A DNA stretch of 64,000 bases from Roseithermus sacchariphilus (GTDB lineage: Bacteria; Bacteroidota; Rhodothermia; Rhodothermales; MEBIC09517). How positions within the stretch are numbered: position 1 is the stretch's first letter; every line of letters starts with the position of its first letter. The position numbers and the translations under genes were made by a program. Location of the stretch: contig CP030158.1 in the NCBI GenBank assembly GCA_003285105.1, forward strand, positions 3,392,664 through 3,456,663, read 5' to 3'. The notes beneath the pieces are model-generated. The model ran no database searches. It was not told the origin of the DNA and saw nothing but the letters and a program-made list of their open reading frames with translations. Positions 134-61,746 of the stretch are shown here, piece by piece.

Positions 134-3100
134 ATGAATCGGTTGAGACTATGCTTCCTTGCGGTCCTCTGTCTGGGCACGGCGCTTCATGCGGCGGCTC
201 AGGGGACGATCAGCGGTACCGTGCGCGATGCCAACACCGGTGAGGTTATCATCGGTGCGCAGGTCGTGCTCACGGCGTCCAACATCGGGGCCGTCACCGA
301 CATCGACGGGAACTACACGATCGCCAACGTGCCGGCCGGTACGTACGACATCCAGGCCCGGTACATCGGGTATCGTTCCCAGACCAAACAGGTCACCGTG
401 ACGAGTGGTGAGACGGCCACGGTGGACTTCGACCTGGCCGAGAGCGCCATCAACCTCGACGAGGTCGTCGTGACCGGAGCGGGCGGGCCCGTCGAGAAGC
501 GCAAGCTGGGCAACTCCATCTCCACGATCGACGCGGAGGCGCTCCAGGAGGCCCCCATCGCCACGTTCTCGGACGTCCTGCAGGGGCGTGAGCCGGGGCT
601 CGTGGGGCTGCCCTCGGGGGGACAGACGGGGGAGGGGACGCGGATTCGGATTCGCGGCTCCGCCTCGCTCTCGCAGAGCAACGAGCCGATCGTCTACATC
701 GACGGCGTGCGCGTCAACAACGGGGGCGGGCTTTCCGGCCTCAACGGCGGCGGCGCACCGTCCCGCCTGGACGACATCAGCCCGGATGCCATCGAGCGGG
801 TGGAGATCCTGAAGGGGGCGGCTGCGGCCACGCTCTACGGCACGGAAGCCTCCAACGGCGTCATCCAGATCTTCACGAAGCAGGGGGCCGTCGGGCCGCC
901 GCGCTTCACGTTCCAGACCACGCAGACCGCGCTGGCCTACCCGAAGGTGTACAAGGCCAACACCGGCTTCGCCCGCACCGCCGCCCGGGCCGACACCATG
1001 TCCAAGTACTTCGGCGGGACGATCCGGCCCTACCAGCTCGTCCAGAAGGAGTTCATGGAGGAGCTCTACGAGACGGGCTATGCCCAGACGTACTCGGCCT
1101 CGGTCAGCGGGGGGACGCCCGGCATCACCTACTACGTCAGCGCGCGCTGGCAGGACGAAGACGGGCCCTTCGGCGGTAAGGAGGGGCGCCGCTACCCGCC
1201 CGGCGCCAAGACGCTGGTGCAGGACATCGTCAAACGTGCCCAGGCCACGGCCACGCTCAACATCTTCCCGACCGAGCGCTTGCAGTTCCGGCTCTCGACG
1301 TCCTACACGGACATGAGCCTGGAGACGATGGACTCCAACAACAACATCTACGGCGTGCCGTCCCTGGCGCAGTTCTCGAAGCCCGAACTGGTGGCCTACA
1401 ACAACCAGACGGGCACGATCGCCTTCGCCACGGTCAACGAGGCCATGCAGCAGGTGCTCGCCCAGGAGGTGAACCGCTTCGTCGGCAGCTTCGGCTTCAA
1501 CTACCGGCCGCTGGACATGCTCACCATCGACGGGACCTTCGGGGTGGACTTCACCTCGCAGCAGGATACCGACGTGCGGCCGTTCGGCTGGGCCATCGAC
1601 AACTTCGCCGCCCGGCTCGATCCGCCCGGCGGTTCTGAACCGTTCGGCAGCCGGGACCTGATCACGACGACGAACCTGCAGACGACCTTCGACGTCAAGG
1701 CGACCCTGCGTAACCAGATCGGGCGGGACTTCGAATCGACCCTGCTCGTCGGCGGGCAGGGCTTCATCTCCAACATCCGGCAGCAGGCCTCCTACGGCGA
1801 ACGCTTCCCGGGGCCCGGCTTCAACGTGACGAGTGCCACGTCCGTCCGGGACCTTTTCGAGTCCTACGAAGAGGTCATCAACGCGGGGCTGTTCGCCCAG
1901 GAGCAGCTGGGCTTCCGGAACTACCTGTTCCTGACCCTGGGCGGGCGCCTGGATGCCAACTCGGCCTTCGGGTCTGACTTCGAGGCGGTCTTCTACCCGA
2001 AGGTGTCGGCCTCGTTCATCCCGTCGGACGCGCCCTTCTGGCGGCCGCTCGGGCCGGTGTCCTCGCTGCGGCTGCGGGCCGCCATCGGGCAGTCCGGCCT
2101 GCAGCCCGGCGCCTTCGACGCGCTGACGACGTACCTGGCGCTCAACTCGATCAACGGCCCCGGCGTGGCGCCGGACAACCTGGGTAACCCCAACCTCAAG
2201 CCGGAGGTCTCCACCGAGTGGGAGGTGGGCGTGGAAACCGGGCTGTTCCTGGACCGCCTCGGCCTGGAGGCGACCTACTGGGACCGCACCGTCAGCGATG
2301 CCCTCGTGGCGCGGCAGTTCCCCGTCACCGGCGGCTTCCGCGGGACGCAGCTCGACAACATCGGCGAGCTGTCGGCCAAGGGCGTCGAGCTGGGGCTGAA
2401 TGCGCTCGTGTACAACTCGGCGGCGACCGAGGTCAACCTGTTCGCCAACGCCGCCTACCTGTGGGAGCAGGTGACCGACATGGGCGGTGCGCCGCCGATC
2501 AAGGTGGGCGGTAGCTACCAGCGCTACCGCAACTACCTGATCGAAGGCTATGCGCCCGGTGCCAACTTCGGCGCGCAGCTGCTCGAGGTCGAGGACGGCT
2601 TCCTGCCGGTGGACTTCAACGGAGACGGCAACCCGGACAGCCGGGATTTCCTGCTCGACTACCTGGGCGGCCTCACCCCGGATGATGCCCGCCTGCCCAC
2701 CAGCACCGCGCAGGTGCTCCTGGCCGGCGATCCGAACCCGAACGACGCGCTCATCGGCAACCTGACCCACTACCTGGGTAAGCCGACGCCCGACTGGAGC
2801 GGGTCCTTCGGCGGCTCCGTGCGGTTCCTGACGAACTTCACGCTCTCGACGCTCTTCGAGTATCGCTTCGGCAACTACGTGGTGAACAACCTCACCGATG
2901 CCTTCCGCAACTCGCATCCCTCCATCGGGCGGAACACGCCGAAGGCGGCCGAAGCGGAGCGGGACTTCATCACGGGCGGCGTCGATGCCAACTACAACCC
3001 GCAGAACAGCGGGGCGGTGCGGCTGGAGGCGCTCGAGACGTGGCTCTACGAGCTGCTGGCCCTGCAGCCCTTCAGCGGCCTCAACACGCTCAAGCAGGCG

Positions 3101-3367
3101 GACTTCCTGCGCTGGCGCGAGCTGAGCCTGACCTACAACCTGCCCCGTGCCTACGTGCAACGTCTCGGCGTGCGGGATCTGTCCTTCACGCTCTCCGGGC
3201 GTAACCTGGCGCTCTTCACCAAGTACGACGGCGTCGACCCCGAGTTGAACGCCATCGGGCGTGGAGGCTCAGGGAGCACGCTGGATACCAACTTCCTCGA
3301 CGGCGTCGAGGCGTTCGGTTTCGCGGTGCCGCGCCGGTTCATCTTCACGATGCGCATGGGCTTCTAG
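134..3367 (+). CDS. SusC/RagA family TonB-linked outer-membrane receptor
   Basis: Large outer-membrane beta-barrel (1077 aa) predicted to import oligomeric nutrients using TonB energy, with the SusD lipoprotein encoded next as its lid. Seen in the sequence: a signal peptide ending near residue 22 (AAAQ), a carboxypeptidase-regulatory-like beta-sandwich at about 24-103, a TonB-box-like stretch DEVVVTG at 109-115, a plug domain to about 247 containing the family-typical RIRIRGSASL, and a long beta-rich barrel ending in aromatic/glycine strands (MRMGF at the C-terminus). This order is diagnostic of SusC. The length is normal for the family. The substrate cannot be read from the sequence. No polysaccharide-degrading gene is directly adjacent, so a peptide or sugar substrate are both possible. 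The upstream region shows no clear Shine-Dalgarno sequence. Confidence 0.95.
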   Translation: MNRLRLCFLAVLCLGTALHAAAQGTISGTVRDANTGEVIIGAQVVLTASNIGAVTDIDGNYTIANVPAGTYDIQARYIGYRSQTKQVTVTSGETATVDFDLAESAINLDEVVVTGAGGPVEKRKLGNSISTIDAEALQEAPIATFSDVLQGREPGLVGLPSGGQTGEGTRIRIRGSASLSQSNEPIVYIDGVRVNNGGGLSGLNGGGAPSRLDDISPDAIERVEILKGAAAATLYGTEASNGVIQIFTKQGAVGPPRFTFQTTQTALAYPKVYKANTGFARTAARADTMSKYFGGTIRPYQLVQKEFMEELYETGYAQTYSASVSGGTPGITYYVSARWQDEDGPFGGKEGRRYPPGAKTLVQDIVKRAQATATLNIFPTERLQFRLSTSYTDMSLETMDSNNNIYGVPSLAQFSKPELVAYNNQTGTIAFATVNEAMQQVLAQEVNRFVGSFGFNYRPLDMLTIDGTFGVDFTSQQDTDVRPFGWAIDNFAARLDPPGGSEPFGSRDLITTTNLQTTFDVKATLRNQIGRDFESTLLVGGQGFISNIRQQASYGERFPGPGFNVTSATSVRDLFESYEEVINAGLFAQEQLGFRNYLFLTLGGRLDANSAFGSDFEAVFYPKVSASFIPSDAPFWRPLGPVSSLRLRAAIGQSGLQPGAFDALTTYLALNSINGPGVAPDNLGNPNLKPEVSTEWEVGVETGLFLDRLGLEATYWDRTVSDALVARQFPVTGGFRGTQLDNIGELSAKGVELGLNALVYNSAATEVNLFANAAYLWEQVTDMGGAPPIKVGGSYQRYRNYLIEGYAPGANFGAQLLEVEDGFLPVDFNGDGNPDSRDFLLDYLGGLTPDDARLPTSTAQVLLAGDPNPNDALIGNLTHYLGKPTPDWSGSFGGSVRFLTNFTLSTLFEYRFGNYVVNNLTDAFRNSHPSIGRNTPKAAEAERDFITGGVDANYNPQNSGAVRLEALETWLYELLALQPFSGLNTLKQADFLRWRELSLTYNLPRAYVQRLGVRDLSFTLSGRNLALFTKYDGVDPELNAIGRGGSGSTLDTNFLDGVEAFGFAVPRRFIFTMRMGF

Positions 3368-3372
3368 CCCGG

Positions 3373-3387
3373 GGGGCGTCCCGCCCC
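3373..3387 (+). terminator. short GC hairpin between susC- and susD-like genes
   Basis: A perfect 6-bp stem (GGGGCG / CGCCCC, 3-nt loop) lies 5 nt after the SusC stop codon. It has no T tract. It is more likely an attenuation or mRNA-processing hairpin than a full terminator, since the SusD gene follows at once. Confidence 0.35.
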
Positions 3388-3474
3388 GTTCGAATCGCCG
3401 TGGCGCGGGGGCGGACTCGCCTCCGCTCCCGCGCACGCTCTTTCCCGAGATTCACAAGCACGGATCGCTTGATT

Positions 3475-4809
3475 ATGTCTGGACGCTGGAACTTGACCCT
3501 GCCCGCCCTGCTCGTGGTGGGCCTCATCGGGGCACCGCTGGCCGGTTGTAACCTGCTGGAGGCGGAAAACCCCAACAACCTCATCGAAGAGGACCTGAGC
3601 AATCCTCAGGCCGCCACGCCCATGGCCAACGGCGCCGAGGGCACGGTGACGCGGGCCCTCAACGCCGTCATGGGGCCCTTCTCCACGGCGACGGACGAAG
3701 TCACCTGGGTGGGCTCGCGGAACGCCTGGCAGGAACTCGACCAGGGCTTCGTCGATCGGGAACTGAACGAGTTCTCCGATGCCGCCTTCCCCTTCGTGGG
3801 CGAAGCCCGCTGGACCGTCGACAACTACGTCGAGCGCCTCGAAGCCTTCCGGGCCGACGGGGCCTCGGTGGCGGTGCCGCTGGCGCGCGTATACCTCTAC
3901 AAGGCGATCATCTATGCCACGATCGCGGACATGTTCGACAACTTTGCCTTCTCGGACCGGACCGAGCCGGGCCCGGCCATCGGCGAGGAGAACATGGTCA
4001 CGCTCTACGACCAGGCGCTCGACGCCGTCAACAAAGGGCTCGCGCTGAACGTGGGCGGCAACTGGGACGTGGCACTGACTGCCATGCGGGCCAGCCTGAA
4101 GTACCGCAAGGCGCTCTGGCAGAAGCTCAACCCCACCGTGAATACGGCCAACCCGCTCGTCGGTGGGGCGGAGCTGATCCAGGATGCCCTGGCCGCCATC
4201 GACCTGATGGGCCTGGGATCGGACTGGCGCTTCGTGCTCGAGATGGATCCCTCCCTGGATGATCTCGTGGCCGACAACCCGGAGGTCGGGCTGGCCTACA
4301 ACATCAACCAGCGCAACGAACTCCGCATCGGCGCCACGTACGTCGAGCCGAACCCGGTGGACGGCGGCAAGACCTATTCGGCCATCACCTTCACGGACAT
4401 CATCGACACGGACACCGTCAATCCGTTTCTGGAAGCCTTCCTGACGCAGTTCACGGATGATGCGCAGTATGGCGATGTCATCAGCCTGTCGGAGCGGGAG
4501 ATGCACCTGATCGCCGCCGAGGCCGAGCTGGCGGCGGGGAACGTCCCCGGCTTCACCACGCACATCAACCACATCCGGGCGATGGACGACCTGACGCCCT
4601 ACAGCGGGCAGGTCGAGCCGCTGGAGATGCTCAAGCATGCGCGGCAGGTGAACCTGTTCCTCCAGGGCCGCCGCCTGGCCGATCACTACCGGTTCCAGGA
4701 GCCCTCGCCGGAGTGGGTGCCCTCCAGCACGGCCATGCAGCAGCCCGGCACGTTCCTGCCGATCACCTTCATCGAACTCAGCGCCAACCCGCTGCTGGGA
4801 GGAGGCTGA
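3475..4809 (+). CDS. SusD/RagB family nutrient-binding outer-membrane lipoprotein
   Basis: Surface lipoprotein of 444 aa expected to cap the SusC barrel encoded upstream and bind its substrate. The ATG at 3475 was chosen because it gives a clean lipoprotein signal: a hydrophobic stretch followed by the lipobox PLAGC with the lipidated Cys at residue 25. An in-frame ATG at 3400 would add 25 Arg-rich residues before it. The body is helical and TPR-like, as in the SusD family. It ends with the family-typical RRLADHYRF region, in which SusD proteins list an Arg-rich turn near the C-terminus. It is somewhat short for SusD (usually about 450-600 aa). It lies 107 bp after the SusC gene, consistent with one operon. 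Confidence 0.9.
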   Translation: MSGRWNLTLPALLVVGLIGAPLAGCNLLEAENPNNLIEEDLSNPQAATPMANGAEGTVTRALNAVMGPFSTATDEVTWVGSRNAWQELDQGFVDRELNEFSDAAFPFVGEARWTVDNYVERLEAFRADGASVAVPLARVYLYKAIIYATIADMFDNFAFSDRTEPGPAIGEENMVTLYDQALDAVNKGLALNVGGNWDVALTAMRASLKYRKALWQKLNPTVNTANPLVGGAELIQDALAAIDLMGLGSDWRFVLEMDPSLDDLVADNPEVGLAYNINQRNELRIGATYVEPNPVDGGKTYSAITFTDIIDTDTVNPFLEAFLTQFTDDAQYGDVISLSEREMHLIAAEAELAAGNVPGFTTHINHIRAMDDLTPYSGQVEPLEMLKHARQVNLFLQGRRLADHYRFQEPSPEWVPSSTAMQQPGTFLPITFIELSANPLLGGG

Positions 4810-49068: not shown

Positions 49069-49236
49069 GCGCGTGGAGCGGAGCCGTGCGGATGCCGGGA
49101 ACGGGGGGCGCGTCTTCGGGTCCTATGCAGGCGCTCCGTGCCTGCAGGCGCTCCGGGGCGCGCGTCGTTCCTTCACCGGCAGACCGCTGCCGCCTCCCGC
49201 GTTCGCCGGGGGGGCGGAGGTCTGGAGGCCGTTTCC

Positions 49237-49629
49237 ATGGCACATCTGTTTCGCTTCTGGCTTGTCGTGGTGCTCCTTGCGGGGCCGGGCTGTATCGTCA
49301 TCGTGCAGGAAAACGAGGATTGCATCGGACATCCCCGGCAGGTCATGCCCCTGGAGGACGTGGATCTGACGGTGGGGAAGGTCGTGGAAAAAGACCTGGA
49401 GGCGCCGACGTCACCGGTGTTCATCCACACGGAAGCGCACCGGTTGTCCTACGACGTGATCGTCGAGGAGCCCGGTGTGGCCGAGGTCACGGTAGAGCGA
49501 GGGCGGATGCGGGTGAAAGGGCGTGCGGCGGGGGTCACCGCCGTCACCATCGAGGTCTACGAGGCCGGCTGTCCGGAGGTCGTTCGTGGGCACCTGACGG
49601 TGCGTGTGCAGGCGGCCGGGGCAGCCTGA
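49237..49629 (+). CDS. small lipoprotein with Ig-like (Big2-type) fold
   Basis: Protein of 130 aa with a lipoprotein signal peptide ending in AGPGC (Cys about 19). The mature part has a small disulfide-capable pair and then a beta-sandwich-like section with a VAEVTVERGRMRVKGRAAG pattern resembling bacterial Ig-like group 2 domains. The ATG at 49237 is supported by GGAGG 8 nt upstream; the longer frame has an unlikely Arg/Gly-rich extension. It lies between oxyR and mutS but no functional link is seen. Function is unknown. Confidence 0.7.
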   Translation: MAHLFRFWLVVVLLAGPGCIVIVQENEDCIGHPRQVMPLEDVDLTVGKVVEKDLEAPTSPVFIHTEAHRLSYDVIVEEPGVAEVTVERGRMRVKGRAAGVTAVTIEVYEAGCPEVVRGHLTVRVQAAGAA

Positions 49630-52496: not shown

Positions 52497-53705
52497 TCAG
52501 GGCTTGTCGAACCGGACACGCTCGAAGTCGTCCCAGTCGATCTTCACCTCGGACCCGTCGGCCAGGGTGACGAAGATGCCGTCGTTCTCGTCGTTGACGT
52601 CGTTGGAATCCCGCAGGTCGAACGAGCGCCCGTCTCGCAGGAAGACGCGCGCCGCACGGGAGGAGAGCCGTTCGATTTCCCGGACGAAGGCGAATTCGAT
52701 GTCGAATTCCAGCCCGTCGAGTTCCCCGTTGAGCAGCTCCCAGGCGTACGCCTCATCGTCGTCCCAGCGGATGACGCCGGTGTACGTCTGTCCGTCGCGC
52801 GTCACCACGGTCCCCTTGAGGAGGCCGCTGCCGAAGAAGTCGTTGTAGGTGATCGGGAAGTCCGGCTCCGAAAAGGTCACCGCCTCGAAGGTATCCCAGT
52901 CCACCTGCACCTGCCCGAGGTACGGATCGAGGACGAGGATGCCCCGGTTCTCGTCGTTGACGTCGTTCGAGCCGCGCAGGACCATCACGTCGCCGCTGCG
53001 GAGGAGGACGCGGCTGCTGCGGCGGCTCTCGCGCTCGATGCGGGCGATGGTGCCGAAGGGAATCTTGCGGTCATAGCCGTTCTCGTCCTCCCCGTCCAGG
53101 ATGTCCTGCGCGAGCACCTCGTCGACGTCCCAGCAGATGTAGCCGGTGAAGGCGTACCCGTTGCGTGTGGTCAGCGTGCCGAAGAGGCGAGGGCCGTAGC
53201 GGGAGGTGGCGGCGTCCCGCGTGGGGCGGAAGTCGATGGCGTCGATGTTGCGCCAGCGCAGTTCGACCTCGCCCCGGGCCGGATCTTCCACGATGATCTC
53301 GCGGACGTCGTTGCCGATGTCGGTGGAGCCGCCCCGGAACTCGACGCGCTGGCCGGAGCGCAGGGTGAGCAGGGCGCGGTTGCTGCCGGTGTTCTCCAGC
53401 CGCTCCAGGTGGCCGAAACGCACGCCGGAGATGCGCGAGCCGGAGGACCCGCCTTCCTCGTACTCGACCACCTCGATGCCGAATATTTCGATGGTGCGGC
53501 GGCGGCGGTCGCCGCTGCGGGTGGTCTTCGACCCGTTCAGAAGGTCGACCCAGCTGGCCTCGTTCTTGTCCCACCGGATCAACCCCTCGAAGGTGTCGCC
53601 CTCCTGCGTGACGACCCGCCCGTAGATGCGATCCGTGTAGGACTGGGCCGGGGCCAGGAGCGGGACCAGGCACAGGCACGTGAGCAGACAACAACGATGG
53701 AGCAT
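52497..53705 (-). CDS. secreted protein with three tandem beta-rich repeats, unknown function
   Basis: Exported protein of 402 aa (signal peptide ending LAPAQ, residue 21) that I cannot place in a family. It is built from three related units at about 28-160, 175-279 and 297-399. Each opens with a G-x-V/L-x-T-x-x-G-x-x-F/Y-x-G-x-I-x-W-D element (for example GTVVTRDGQTYTGVIRWDDD), passes through LLNG or ILDG, then RVLLRSG, then SNDVNDEN or a variant, and closes with VDWDTFEAVTF. Conserved Trp and Asp/Asn residues suggest a repeated fold, perhaps binding sugar or Ca2+; that is inference. It is convergent with mutS. Confidence 0.8.
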   Translation of the reverse strand: MLHRCCLLTCLCLVPLLAPAQSYTDRIYGRVVTQEGDTFEGLIRWDKNEASWVDLLNGSKTTRSGDRRRRTIEIFGIEVVEYEEGGSSGSRISGVRFGHLERLENTGSNRALLTLRSGQRVEFRGGSTDIGNDVREIIVEDPARGEVELRWRNIDAIDFRPTRDAATSRYGPRLFGTLTTRNGYAFTGYICWDVDEVLAQDILDGEDENGYDRKIPFGTIARIERESRRSSRVLLRSGDVMVLRGSNDVNDENRGILVLDPYLGQVQVDWDTFEAVTFSEPDFPITYNDFFGSGLLKGTVVTRDGQTYTGVIRWDDDEAYAWELLNGELDGLEFDIEFAFVREIERLSSRAARVFLRDGRSFDLRDSNDVNDENDGIFVTLADGSEVKIDWDDFERVRFDKP

Positions 53706-58508: not shown

Positions 58509-59057
58509 ATGCCGGATGAAGGACCGACGCCGCCGGAGCCCCGCGAGGTGGATCTGGATGCGCTCTTTCAGGGGACGTATCAGGAATTGCGCCGGCTTGC
58601 AGCCGTCGTCGGGCGGGGGGATCCGTCAGAGACGCTCAACCCCACGGCGCTGGTCAACGAGGCCTACCTCCGGCTGGCCGAGTCCCTTCGGGTTTCGCCG
58701 GCCAGCACAATGCACTTCAAACGCATCGCTGCTCGTGCCATGCGCCAGGTGCTGGTCGATGCGGCCCGCAGACGGCAGGCGCTCAAGCGGGGTGGAGATG
58801 CGGTGATGGTGACCTTCGATGCGGCCCTCGACGGGGTCCGTGTGGCCCGTTCGGAAGAGGTGCTGGCTCTGGACGAGGCCCTGGCCGGTCTGGCTGCGCT
58901 CGAGCCGCGCCAGGCTCAGATCGTGGAGTTTCGCTTTTTTGGAGGATACAGCCTCGATGAGACGGCCCGGCTGCTCGGAGTCTCCCCCGCCACTGTGCAG
59001 CGCGACTGGCGAGCCGCACGGGCCTGGCTGCTGCTCGAACTCGGACGCCCGGGCTGA
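58509..59057 (+). CDS. ECF-like RNA polymerase sigma factor (TIGR02999/SigX6-like)
   Basis: Alternative sigma factor of 182 aa that would direct RNA polymerase to a set of promoters. Region 2 is seen in TALVNEAYLRLAES and HFKRIAARAMRQVLVDAARRR. Region 4, with its helix-turn-helix, is in LEPRQAQIVEFRFFGGYSLDETARLLGVSP. This wording fits the sigma group often paired with Ser/Thr kinases in Planctomycetes, Acidobacteria and Rhodothermales-type genomes. No anti-sigma gene is adjacent; instead a receptor-like kinase gene starts 40 bp downstream and probably controls it. Confidence 0.88.
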   Translation: MPDEGPTPPEPREVDLDALFQGTYQELRRLAAVVGRGDPSETLNPTALVNEAYLRLAESLRVSPASTMHFKRIAARAMRQVLVDAARRRQALKRGGDAVMVTFDAALDGVRVARSEEVLALDEALAGLAALEPRQAQIVEFRFFGGYSLDETARLLGVSPATVQRDWRAARAWLLLELGRPG

Positions 59058-59097
59058 GCCCCGGCCGTCTCTGCCTGAGACGAACTCGCTTTCTGTC

Positions 59098-61746
59098 ATG
59101 GACGCCGCTCGCTGGTCCCGCTTGCAGGTCCTCTTCCACGACGCACTCTCGGTGCCCGAGTCCGACCGGGAGCGCTGGCTCGATGAGGTCTGTCGCGAGG
59201 ATGCCTCGCTCCGCGACGACCTGCGGCGGCTGCTCGCGGCCGATGCACGGGCCACCTCCTGGCTGGATCGCGGGGCGGCCGGCTCCGCCCGGGCGTTGCT
59301 CGAGCCCGACGTCCATCCCGAGACCATTGGACCCTACCGGATACGCCGGGTGCTCGGGTGCGGCGGCATGGGCGTCGTGTATCTGGCCGAGCGGGAGGAT
59401 CTGGGCTCACATGTGGCCGTCAAGGTGCTGCGTGCCCCGCTGGTGTCCGCTCTGGGACGGACACGCTTCGACGACGAGGCGCGAACCCTGGCCCGCCTCA
59501 ACCATCCGTCCATCGCCCGGCTGTTCGATGCCGGGACGCTGCCCGACGGCACGCCCTACATGGTCATGGAGTACGTGCAGGGGGAGTCGCTGATGGCGTA
59601 TTGCGAACGCGCGCAGTGTGACGTCGAGCAGCGGCTGGATCTGTTCCGGGAGGTTGCCGAAGCCGTCGACTATGCCCACCGTCAGGCCATCATCCACCGG
59701 GATCTCAAGCCGTCCAACATCCTCGTCGCACCGGGTGAGACGGGCGGGGCGCCTGCCGTGAAGCTGCTGGATTTCGGGATCGCCAAGCCCCTCGACCGGC
59801 CGGACCTCTGGCGTACGCAGACCGGGCAGTGGGTGATGACCCCGGCCTATGCCGCGCCCGAGCAACTGCGGGGAGAGGCCGTGGGCGTGTTCACCGACGT
59901 CTACGCGCTGGGGGTCATGCTCTACGAACTGCTGACCGGCACGTCTCCCTACGATCTGACGGACTGCACACCGGGGGAGGTCGAACAGATCGTGCTCGGC
60001 CAGGAGCCCGAGAAGCCTTCCGTCCGGGCTGTTCGGACGGGGCGAGTGGCCTTGCGGTCCTGGCCGGATCGGCAGGCCTGGGCGGACCTGGACGTGCTGT
60101 GCCTCAAAGCCATGCACAAGGACCCGGCCCGGCGCTATGCGTCCGTGGAGGCGCTCCTGCGGGATCTACGGCATGTGCGGCAACGGGAGCCGCTGGAGGC
60201 GCGCCCGGACACGCCGGGCTATCGCCTCGGGCTGTTCGTGCGCCGCAACCGCCGGGCCGTGCTGGCGACCGCGCTCGGGGCCGTGGCGTTCATGGGCGTC
60301 GTGGGCTTCTACACGTGGCGCCTCCGGTCGGCGCGTGACGCGGCCCTGCAGGAAGCCGCCCGGGCGCAGCGGATCGAGCGGTTCATGATGGCGCTCTTCG
60401 AGGACGGGGACGTCTCCGTCGGTCCGCCGGACAGCCTGCGCGTGACGACGCTGTTGGAGCGGGGGGTGCGCGAGGCGCAGATGCTCGAGGCCGAGCCGGA
60501 CGTCCAGACCGAGCTCTACATGACCCTCGGGAGGCTCTACCAGCAGCTCGGGGATCTGGACCGGGCGGACTCGTTGCTCTCGGCGGCTCTGCGGCAGCGG
60601 GAAGGGCGTCTGGGGGCCGGCCATCCGAGCGTGGCGAGGAGCCGGGTGGCGCTGGGGAGGCTGCGGAACGACCAGGCCGCCTTCGAAGAAGCCGAACGAC
60701 TCATCCGGGAAGGCCTCGTCGCGATCCGCCGCCACCTGCCCGCCCGGCACCCGGCCGAGGTCGAAGCGCTCACAGCGCTGGGGCACGCTCTGACGGAACA
60801 AGGCGGATACGACCGGGCCGTCGCCGTCCTGGAGGAAGCCGCACGCCTTCAGACCGACGCCGACCCCGCCTCGCTCAGCGAAACGCTCACGGAACTGGCC
60901 AACGCCCACTTCTACGCCGGACGCTACGCGTCGTCTGATTCGCTGAACCGCCTCGTGCTGGCGCTGGACCAGCGGCACTTCGGCCGGCGGCATCCTCGCG
61001 TAGCCGGCAGCCTGATCAACCTGGGGGCCACGCGCCATCAACTCGGGTACTTCGAAGAGGCCGAGGGCCTCTACCGGCAGGCGCTGGAGATCAACCTGGC
61101 CTATTTCGGCCCGGATCGCGTGGAGACGGCCGCCAACCTGCGCATGCTGGGGCAGACGCTCGCCTTCCAGGGGCGCTACGACGAGGCCCTGGAGGTGCTC
61201 CGCCCGGCGCTCGCCCTGCACGAACGGGTCTACGGCCGCGATCATCCGAACATCGCCAGCCTGCTCAACGAACTGGGCACGGTGGCGCTCCAACAGGATG
61301 ACTTTGCCCGCGCCGAGGCCTTTTTCAGCCGCATGGTCGCCATCTACCGCGCCGTCTATCAAGACGACCACTACTACACCGGGATCGGCCTGGCAAACCT
61401 GGCCAGTGTGTATCTGGCCGAAGGGCGATACGATCGTGCCGAGCCACTCTTCCGGGACGCTCTGGCGCTCTTCACGCGGACGCTGGGGGAGGCCCACATC
61501 CAGACGGGCATCGCGCGGATCAAGCTGGGGCGCGTCCTGCTGCGCTCCGGCCGCCCCGAGGAGGCCACGGGGGAGCTGCGCACGGGCTATGACATCCTGA
61601 ACGCTCAGACCAGTCCTTCCGTGAGCTGGCTACAGGCCGCTCGTGGCGACCTGGCCGAGGCGTATGAACGGCTCGGGAATCCCGAACAGGCAGCCGTCTT
61701 CCGGTCCGAGCGGGCCGCGGCCGAAGCGGCCCACCCGGACCGGTGA
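59098..61746 (+). CDS. membrane Ser/Thr protein kinase with TPR sensor region
   Basis: Single-span membrane kinase of 882 aa. The Hanks-type kinase domain spans about 78-360: glycine loop LGCGGMGVVYLA, catalytic Lys109 in VAVKVL, H200-R-D202 in IHRDLKPSN, and D225-F-G. A transmembrane helix lies at about 385-405 (TALGAVAFMGVVGFYTW). The outer part, about 440-870, is a series of TPR units of the 42-residue kinesin-light-chain type (ALEINLAYFGPDRVETAANL, YGRDHPNIASLLNELG, and others). ATG 59098 was chosen; the frame continues upstream only because it overlaps the sigma gene. It is likely coupled to the sigma factor. Confidence 0.93.
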   Translation: MDAARWSRLQVLFHDALSVPESDRERWLDEVCREDASLRDDLRRLLAADARATSWLDRGAAGSARALLEPDVHPETIGPYRIRRVLGCGGMGVVYLAEREDLGSHVAVKVLRAPLVSALGRTRFDDEARTLARLNHPSIARLFDAGTLPDGTPYMVMEYVQGESLMAYCERAQCDVEQRLDLFREVAEAVDYAHRQAIIHRDLKPSNILVAPGETGGAPAVKLLDFGIAKPLDRPDLWRTQTGQWVMTPAYAAPEQLRGEAVGVFTDVYALGVMLYELLTGTSPYDLTDCTPGEVEQIVLGQEPEKPSVRAVRTGRVALRSWPDRQAWADLDVLCLKAMHKDPARRYASVEALLRDLRHVRQREPLEARPDTPGYRLGLFVRRNRRAVLATALGAVAFMGVVGFYTWRLRSARDAALQEAARAQRIERFMMALFEDGDVSVGPPDSLRVTTLLERGVREAQMLEAEPDVQTELYMTLGRLYQQLGDLDRADSLLSAALRQREGRLGAGHPSVARSRVALGRLRNDQAAFEEAERLIREGLVAIRRHLPARHPAEVEALTALGHALTEQGGYDRAVAVLEEAARLQTDADPASLSETLTELANAHFYAGRYASSDSLNRLVLALDQRHFGRRHPRVAGSLINLGATRHQLGYFEEAEGLYRQALEINLAYFGPDRVETAANLRMLGQTLAFQGRYDEALEVLRPALALHERVYGRDHPNIASLLNELGTVALQQDDFARAEAFFSRMVAIYRAVYQDDHYYTGIGLANLASVYLAEGRYDRAEPLFRDALALFTRTLGEAHIQTGIARIKLGRVLLRSGRPEEATGELRTGYDILNAQTSPSVSWLQAARGDLAEAYERLGNPEQAAVFRSERAAAEAAHPDR

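Follow-up and report, generated by a model that had tools for sequence, protein, structure and literature searches.

A conserved secreted protein family predicted to contain six SH3-like barrels and its possible link to envelope signalling

The gene and its three tandem units

The stretch of DNA analyzed here (the window) comprises 64,000 nucleotides from Roseithermus sacchariphilus. Positions 52497-53705 encode, on the reverse strand, a protein of 402 amino acids; the start codon (ATG at 53705) and the stop codon (TGA at 52499-52497) confirm the coordinates and the strand of the gene. The gene and the main parts of its product are listed below.

52497..53705 (-): whole gene, 402 amino acids plus stop; open reading frame and translation, homologues align over the full length
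53643..53705 (-): predicted signal peptide, residues 1-21; hydrophobic N-terminus ending in APA-Q
53217..53636 (-): unit 1, residues 24-163, barrels 1A and 1B; match to the unit profile, strands of the AlphaFold2 (AF2) model
53439..53522 (-): insert in the strand 3-4 loop of barrel 1A, residues 62-89; pLDDT below 50 for residues 62-90
52860..53198 (-): unit 2, residues 170-282, barrels 2A and 2B; match to the unit profile, AF2 strands
52500..52838 (-): unit 3, residues 290-402, barrels 3A and 3B; match to the unit profile, AF2 model of the unit alone

The N-terminus, MLHRCCLLTCLCLVPLLAPAQS, has the pattern of a signal peptide as judged from the sequence. It is the only hydrophobic segment of the window protein, and a similar hydrophobic stretch (h-region) is found at the N-terminus of 93 of the 95 homologues. 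No transmembrane (TM) helix, lipobox or T9SS sorting domain was detected in the window protein, and Pfam scans of this protein and 20 homologues gave no match to the T9SS C-terminal sorting models Por_Secre_tail and CHU_C. SprA is encoded in the window genome. With a pI of about 4.6 the mature protein is acidic, and the net charge of the whole protein, averaged over 95 proteins, is -31. The signal-peptide pattern supports the view, expressed in a first-pass annotation, that the protein is secreted. A location in the envelope is plausible for the window protein, and for the family the periplasm is the likeliest compartment.

The same annotation had described three tandem units, and these are real. 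Pairwise Smith-Waterman scores between the units are 138 (units 1 and 2), 235 (2 and 3) and 120 (1 and 3), far above those from 1000 shuffles per pair, which averaged about 30 and peaked at 55-66. A unit profile matched the window protein three times with E values from 7e-40 to 1e-36; the profile was built with these units included, so that the matches confirm their position and carry no independent significance. A search of the window genome with this profile returned nothing beyond the three units of this protein. The unit size, previously estimated at roughly 105-130 residues, has to be corrected for unit 1, which at about 140 residues is longer because of the low-confidence, usually basic insert in its first barrel. 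The first part of this insert (residues 60-74) has a mean net charge of +4.2 and is positive in 83% of 95 proteins; such an insert occurs in unit 1 alone, and the rest of the protein is very acidic. The fixed motifs that had been noticed by eye are strict in units 2 and 3 (WDVDE/WDDDE, SNDVNDEN and VDWDTFE/IDWDDFE), but unit 1 deviates from them, its counterparts being WDKNE, GSTDIGND and LRWRNID.

Predicted fold and comparison with known families

An AF2 model of the whole protein, calculated from an alignment of 21 sequences, had a pLDDT of 85 and a pTM of 0.83. Unit 3 modelled alone (pLDDT 88, pTM 0.83) adopted the same topology as in the whole chain. According to DSSP, each unit of the model consists of ten strands in two sets of five, and the same topology, five strands with a short 3-10 turn between strands 4 and 5, recurs six times; in barrel 2B the turn before strand 5 is present and is not called helical by DSSP. 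Five strands and a 3-10 turn are the hallmarks of an SH3-like small barrel, found here in a predicted structure only. Each unit is therefore predicted to be a pair of five-stranded SH3-like small barrels, and the chain to comprise six. The high pTM suggests that the six barrels are held in a fixed mutual arrangement. A sixfold repeat in the sequence was considered and rejected, since profiles of the A barrels and the B barrels do not match each other; the repeat is thus threefold in sequence and sixfold in fold.

Foldseek searches with one unit retrieved mostly small-barrel or LytTR folds. The top match was the ImpE fold of HsiE1 (4uqz), with a probability of 1.00, a query TM score of 0.55-0.56 and an E value of 0.03, albeit at 10% identity and an rmsd of about 8 A. 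The LytTR domain of AgrA was matched with a probability of up to 0.92. Matches of the Sso7d type had a target TM score of 0.54 and an rmsd of 2.0-2.9 A (2.9 A for Sso7d, 2.0 A for the small binder 7c1m). Other neighbours were an SH3 variant and the small lipoprotein chains 3bdu, 2ra2 and 2k57, which we take to be of the YgdI/YgdR type. A comparison of the full-length model with the PDB gave incidental beta-rich matches only (TM below 0.2), and these were set aside. No match reached an E value below 0.001, either for the full-length protein or for the unit, so that the fold assignment is a prediction at the level of the superfold.

Searches of the window protein against Pfam and NCBIfam gave no match above the cut-offs, and no PDB sequence was significantly matched by the window protein or by the family and unit profiles. 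Scans of individual members produced marginal matches scattered over many models, a number of which describe SH3-, Sm- or PH-type barrels (DUF903, YgdI/YgdR, RimP, YcxB, bPH_6). YcxB was matched in 11 of the 21 members, bPH_6 in 8 and the others in 1-4; in the window protein itself YcxB and LppM stayed below the Pfam cut-offs. The best E values of members for DUF903 and YgdI/YgdR ranged from 7e-4 to 6e-3, and the window protein had no Pfam or NCBIfam match to these models. The LytTR matches were marginal (2 of 21 members, best E 0.03). Matches to TIGR02603, ExtJ, NifT and RimP were taken as the common signal of small barrels and not as membership. ImpE was not matched in Pfam by the window protein, the homologues or the units, nor among PDB sequences. 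The RseB model of Pfam did not appear in scans of the window protein (E up to 10) or of 20 homologues (E up to 0.1), and there was no match to SH3b, LysM or carbohydrate-binding Pfam models. Profile searches also yielded no confident match to PQQ, TIG or Kelch, the repeat families to which a confident match had been named as a refutation; Kelch_2 was marginal, with E values of 0.064 in one member and 0.01 in two units. A viral structure library and viral contigs contained no convincing relative, and the literature searched, with incomplete coverage, held no earlier description of the family.

These results place the protein outside the known families, as the first-pass annotation had proposed. 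Its picture of an undescribed repeat fold in the envelope is borne out as regards a secreted protein of three units without a known family; the fold itself is not new, since each half-unit is predicted to be an SH3-like small barrel, a known superfold. If the model is correct, the superfold is ordinary and the fixed arrangement of three pairs of barrels is unusual, the family and its layout being unmatched in the libraries searched.

It is conceivable that the family is a variant of a known SH3-fold family, such as YgdI/YgdR/DUF903, the C-terminal part of ImpE, LytTR or bacterial PH, which the libraries missed. The weak matches to DUF903, YgdI/YgdR, RimP, YcxB and bPH_6 and the Foldseek similarity to ImpE and LytTR point in this direction. 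However, the sequence matches are marginal, below cut-offs or spread over many unrelated models, ImpE and RseB are not matched at all, and a signal peptide followed by three pairs of barrels is unlike any of these families. We therefore consider this explanation very improbable. The ImpE fold of HsiE1 is a 12-stranded beta barrel (PMC4239648). Members of the ImpE/HsiE1/TagJ group (PDB 4uqx-4uqz) include the top Foldseek match of one unit, but HsiE1 is a T6SS accessory protein with an N-terminal TPR domain, whereas members of the present family carry a signal peptide and comprise three units. YgdI/YgdR represents a small barrel in exported proteins and shares with our family the type of barrel predicted here, the export signal and weak sequence and Foldseek matches; it differs in being a single barrel of about 55 residues with a lipid anchor, and a candidate lipobox cysteine occurs in one of the 95 members of our family. 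The LytTR domain (AgrA, ComE) is a Foldseek neighbour of the unit, and a LytTR regulator is linked to the family in two loci; it is, however, a cytoplasmic DNA-binding domain, whereas the present family is secreted and acidic, which makes DNA binding unlikely.

Inside the barrels, 18 positions are occupied by conserved D, E or N (at least 85% of 95 aligned proteins). Sixteen of these lie in the six strand 2-3 loops, one per barrel, which account for 61 of 335 positions (hypergeometric p for enrichment 3e-11), and they coincide with the WDxDE and SNDVNDEN motifs noted earlier. The loops below are defined by the AF2 strands and by conservation over the 95 proteins.

53544..53570 (-): strand 2-3 loop of barrel 1A, DKNEASWVD; conserved D46, E49, D54
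53298..53333 (-): strand 2-3 loop of barrel 1B, GGSTDIGNDVRE; D129 about 100% conserved
53103..53129 (-): strand 2-3 loop of barrel 2A, DVDEVLAQD; D193, E196, D201
52941..52973 (-): strand 2-3 loop of barrel 2B, GSNDVNDENRG; N247, D248, N253
52737..52763 (-): strand 2-3 loop of barrel 3A, DDDEAYAWE; D315, D317, E318, E323
52578..52610 (-): strand 2-3 loop of barrel 3B, DSNDVNDENDG; D369, N374

The presence of six equivalent loops with conserved acidic or amide residues suggests repeated binding sites, although the acidic loops may be structural instead.

Distribution of the family and its gene neighbourhoods

Relatives that share the full length and the layout of the window protein come from Zixibacteria, from a MAG labelled Calditrichaeota, and from Krumholzibacteria and UBP1 records, all with 41-50% identity. 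Others, from some genomes of the order to which the window belongs, show 56-60% identity, except for one with 29%. Profile searches found the family in 90 of 132 genomes of the phylum containing Zixibacteria and in 40 of 80 genomes of a second phylum, that of loci L011, L012 and L015. A single-sequence search among relatives of the window genome detected it in 6 of 60, and its distribution in the wider phylum of the window is patchy (4 of 394 genomes). There is usually one copy per genome. The number of units is exactly three in each of the 95 distinct full-length proteins, and a search of 20 genomes for homologues with a single unit found none. In a tree of the units, units 1, 2 and 3 form separate groups (support 97, 89 and 53), which indicates that the triplication most likely predates the spread of the family. 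The window's order contributes five members, which group in a single clade nested within sequences from Zixibacteria and the second phylum, a position equally compatible with transfer and with deep inheritance. One homologue (L016, 5983-7218) is broken by in-frame stops or a frameshift (first ORF of 104 amino acids; one TGA and one TAA) and represents either a pseudogene or an assembly error.

In the window the gene is convergent with mutS; its other neighbours are purD and the genes for a hexapeptide protein, a polysaccharide deacetylase and an LPG-synthase-like membrane protein. In the four closest relatives from the order mutS always adjoins the gene, and the hexapeptide protein and purD recur in several; no linked regulator lies beside the gene in the window or in these four. 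Many Zixibacteria have the order LysM/SLT, S49 peptidase, HU, BACON/T9SS-tail protein, family gene, TPR, purE and purD. We read this as inherited order, because it includes purine genes and because the BACON gene is missing in some genomes. The latter gene encodes a conserved 960-amino-acid BACON-domain protein with a T9SS-type C-terminal tail (e.g. L007, 3003-5882); it lies about 100 bp before the family gene in many genomes and is missing in L105, L106 and L123. An apparent operon with a 4-bp overlap in L011-L013 and L019 looked like the product of a spurious ORF and was discarded. L105 carries an IS30-like transposase (by eye; relative positions 1466-2473) inserted immediately downstream of the family gene. 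In L120 a two-gene insert lies downstream of the family gene and before the TPR gene (relative positions 1956-3522); by eye, one of its products resembles TIR-like nucleotide-binding proteins and the other is a membrane protein, and the insert may be a defence island.

Six divergent genomes (L167-L171 and L181) have a different arrangement, in which an ECF sigma factor, an anti-sigma factor with one TM segment and the family gene follow each other on the same strand. Pfam confirmed the sigma factor (Sigma70_r2/r4_2) in the two loci scanned; the zinc-finger model zf-HC2 was matched in four of the six anti-sigma factors, and the TM segment was found in the four checked. No other neighbour cluster is common to more than two of these loci, and a related sigma gene is nearby in only one of 73 other loci. 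Full-length matches to the anti-sigma factor were confined to the six linked loci among the 29 genomes searched, and the window genome has no anti-sigma factor homologous over the full length (best E 0.001). All six loci come from one part of the family tree, so that they may reflect a single event kept by descent. After the TM segment, their anti-sigma factors have in common an extracytoplasmic motif, DxRFVxLxxELLxADxRYHxxM.

Two loci in Bacteroidota have the order family gene, kinase, LytTR regulator. In G348 (L028, 7829-12289, -) two copies of the gene flank a LytS-type kinase and a LytTR regulator; on a plasmid of Rufibacter tibetensis (NZ_CP012644.1) the kinase gene lies 17 bp downstream of that for WP_062546193.1 and is followed by the LytTR regulator. 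Both LytS-type kinases have 3-4 TM segments within the first 140 residues, and no extracytoplasmic sensor domain is visible in either. The Rufibacter locus adjoins genes for a pectinesterase, a polysaccharide lyase and a TonB receptor. Furthermore, a CHASE/PAS hybrid kinase is encoded about 90 bp downstream of the family gene in L174 and L176.

Possible roles in the cell envelope

The family is real, widespread and apparently undescribed, and a function in signalling is plausible. Two distant parts of the family are tightly linked to regulators, to sigma/anti-sigma pairs and to kinase/LytTR pairs, i.e. to switches through which bacteria detect disturbances of the outer envelope, and this argues for such a role. 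On the strength of this linkage we see about an even chance that the protein is an extracytoplasmic accessory of membrane signalling, i.e. a secreted, single-copy protein of six barrels that would bind through its loops and act on a membrane partner. A ligand or a component of the envelope would be held by the acidic and polar strand 2-3 loops, through which the state of the envelope would be sensed, and the bound state would be passed to the partner. This could be an anti-sigma factor with one TM segment, contacted in its periplasmic part, or a multi-TM histidine kinase of the LytS type that lacks a sensor. The protein would then work as RseB does on RseA, or in the way that periplasmic binding proteins act on their kinases. 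We infer the contact with the partner, the ligand and the direction of signalling, and also that the window copy does the same job as its linked relatives; since this copy has no linked regulator, its function is extrapolated from theirs.

The gene for RseB belongs to the rpoE operon, and its product binds RseA at the periplasmic domain of the latter (PMC8103513). The six sigma loci resemble the RseB/MucB system in that the gene for a secreted protein follows those for an ECF sigma factor and a membrane anti-sigma factor. The family differs from it in having no RseB Pfam match and, in the window, no linked sigma factor; moreover, RseB has a fold other than the six SH3-like barrels predicted here.

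Linkage to a regulator could equally mark a regulated output, and the main rival to a sensor is a secreted protein for envelope protection or scaffolding, whose gene would be induced by the neighbouring sigma factor or two-component system where one is linked and would rely on a promoter of its own in other genomes. The family gene comes last in the order sigma, anti-sigma, family gene, it stands alone in most genomes including that of the window, and most Zixibacteria carry it whether or not regulators are linked; all of this would suit an output. However, its position ahead of a kinase without an extracytoplasmic sensor domain, in G348 and Rufibacter, would suit a sensing partner, and in G348 two copies flank the kinase/LytTR pair. 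Together, these data lead us to regard an output as somewhat unlikely. The barrels could also act as a multivalent binder at the cell wall or outer surface, holding peptidoglycan, glycan or calcium-bridged polymers, with no part in signalling. Tandem SH3-type barrels are a common means of binding peptidoglycan, LysM/SLT and S49 genes lie upstream in Zixibacteria, and the acidic loops are repeated six times in an acidic mature protein. This role seems quite improbable, as it does not account for the linkage to regulators in two distant parts of the family and no SH3b, LysM or carbohydrate-binding Pfam model is matched.

Whatever its function, this is a conserved and apparently undescribed secreted family, present in most genomes of the phylum containing Zixibacteria and in half the genomes searched from a second phylum; its design is rigid, always with three pairs of barrels, and gene order provides a hypothesis on its partners. 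If it is a sensor, ECF anti-sigma factors and those LytTR systems whose kinases have no obvious sensor domain would receive their input through a new fold; we know of no such fold in this role. A bolder and unlikely proposal is that the family forms a new class of extracytoplasmic signal-input proteins, in which six fused barrels, obligately in three pairs and possibly closed into a pseudo-symmetric ring, would be a shared sensing module plugged into unrelated switches (anti-sigma factors, LytS-type kinases and CHASE/PAS kinases).

Two other loci in the window were recorded. At 58509-61746 (+), about 5 kb from the gene and probably unrelated to it, the gene for what by eye is an ECF-type sigma factor precedes that for a Ser/Thr kinase with TPR repeats. 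A putative secreted protein of 163 amino acids with no Pfam match is encoded upstream of mutS, at 49138-49629 (+).
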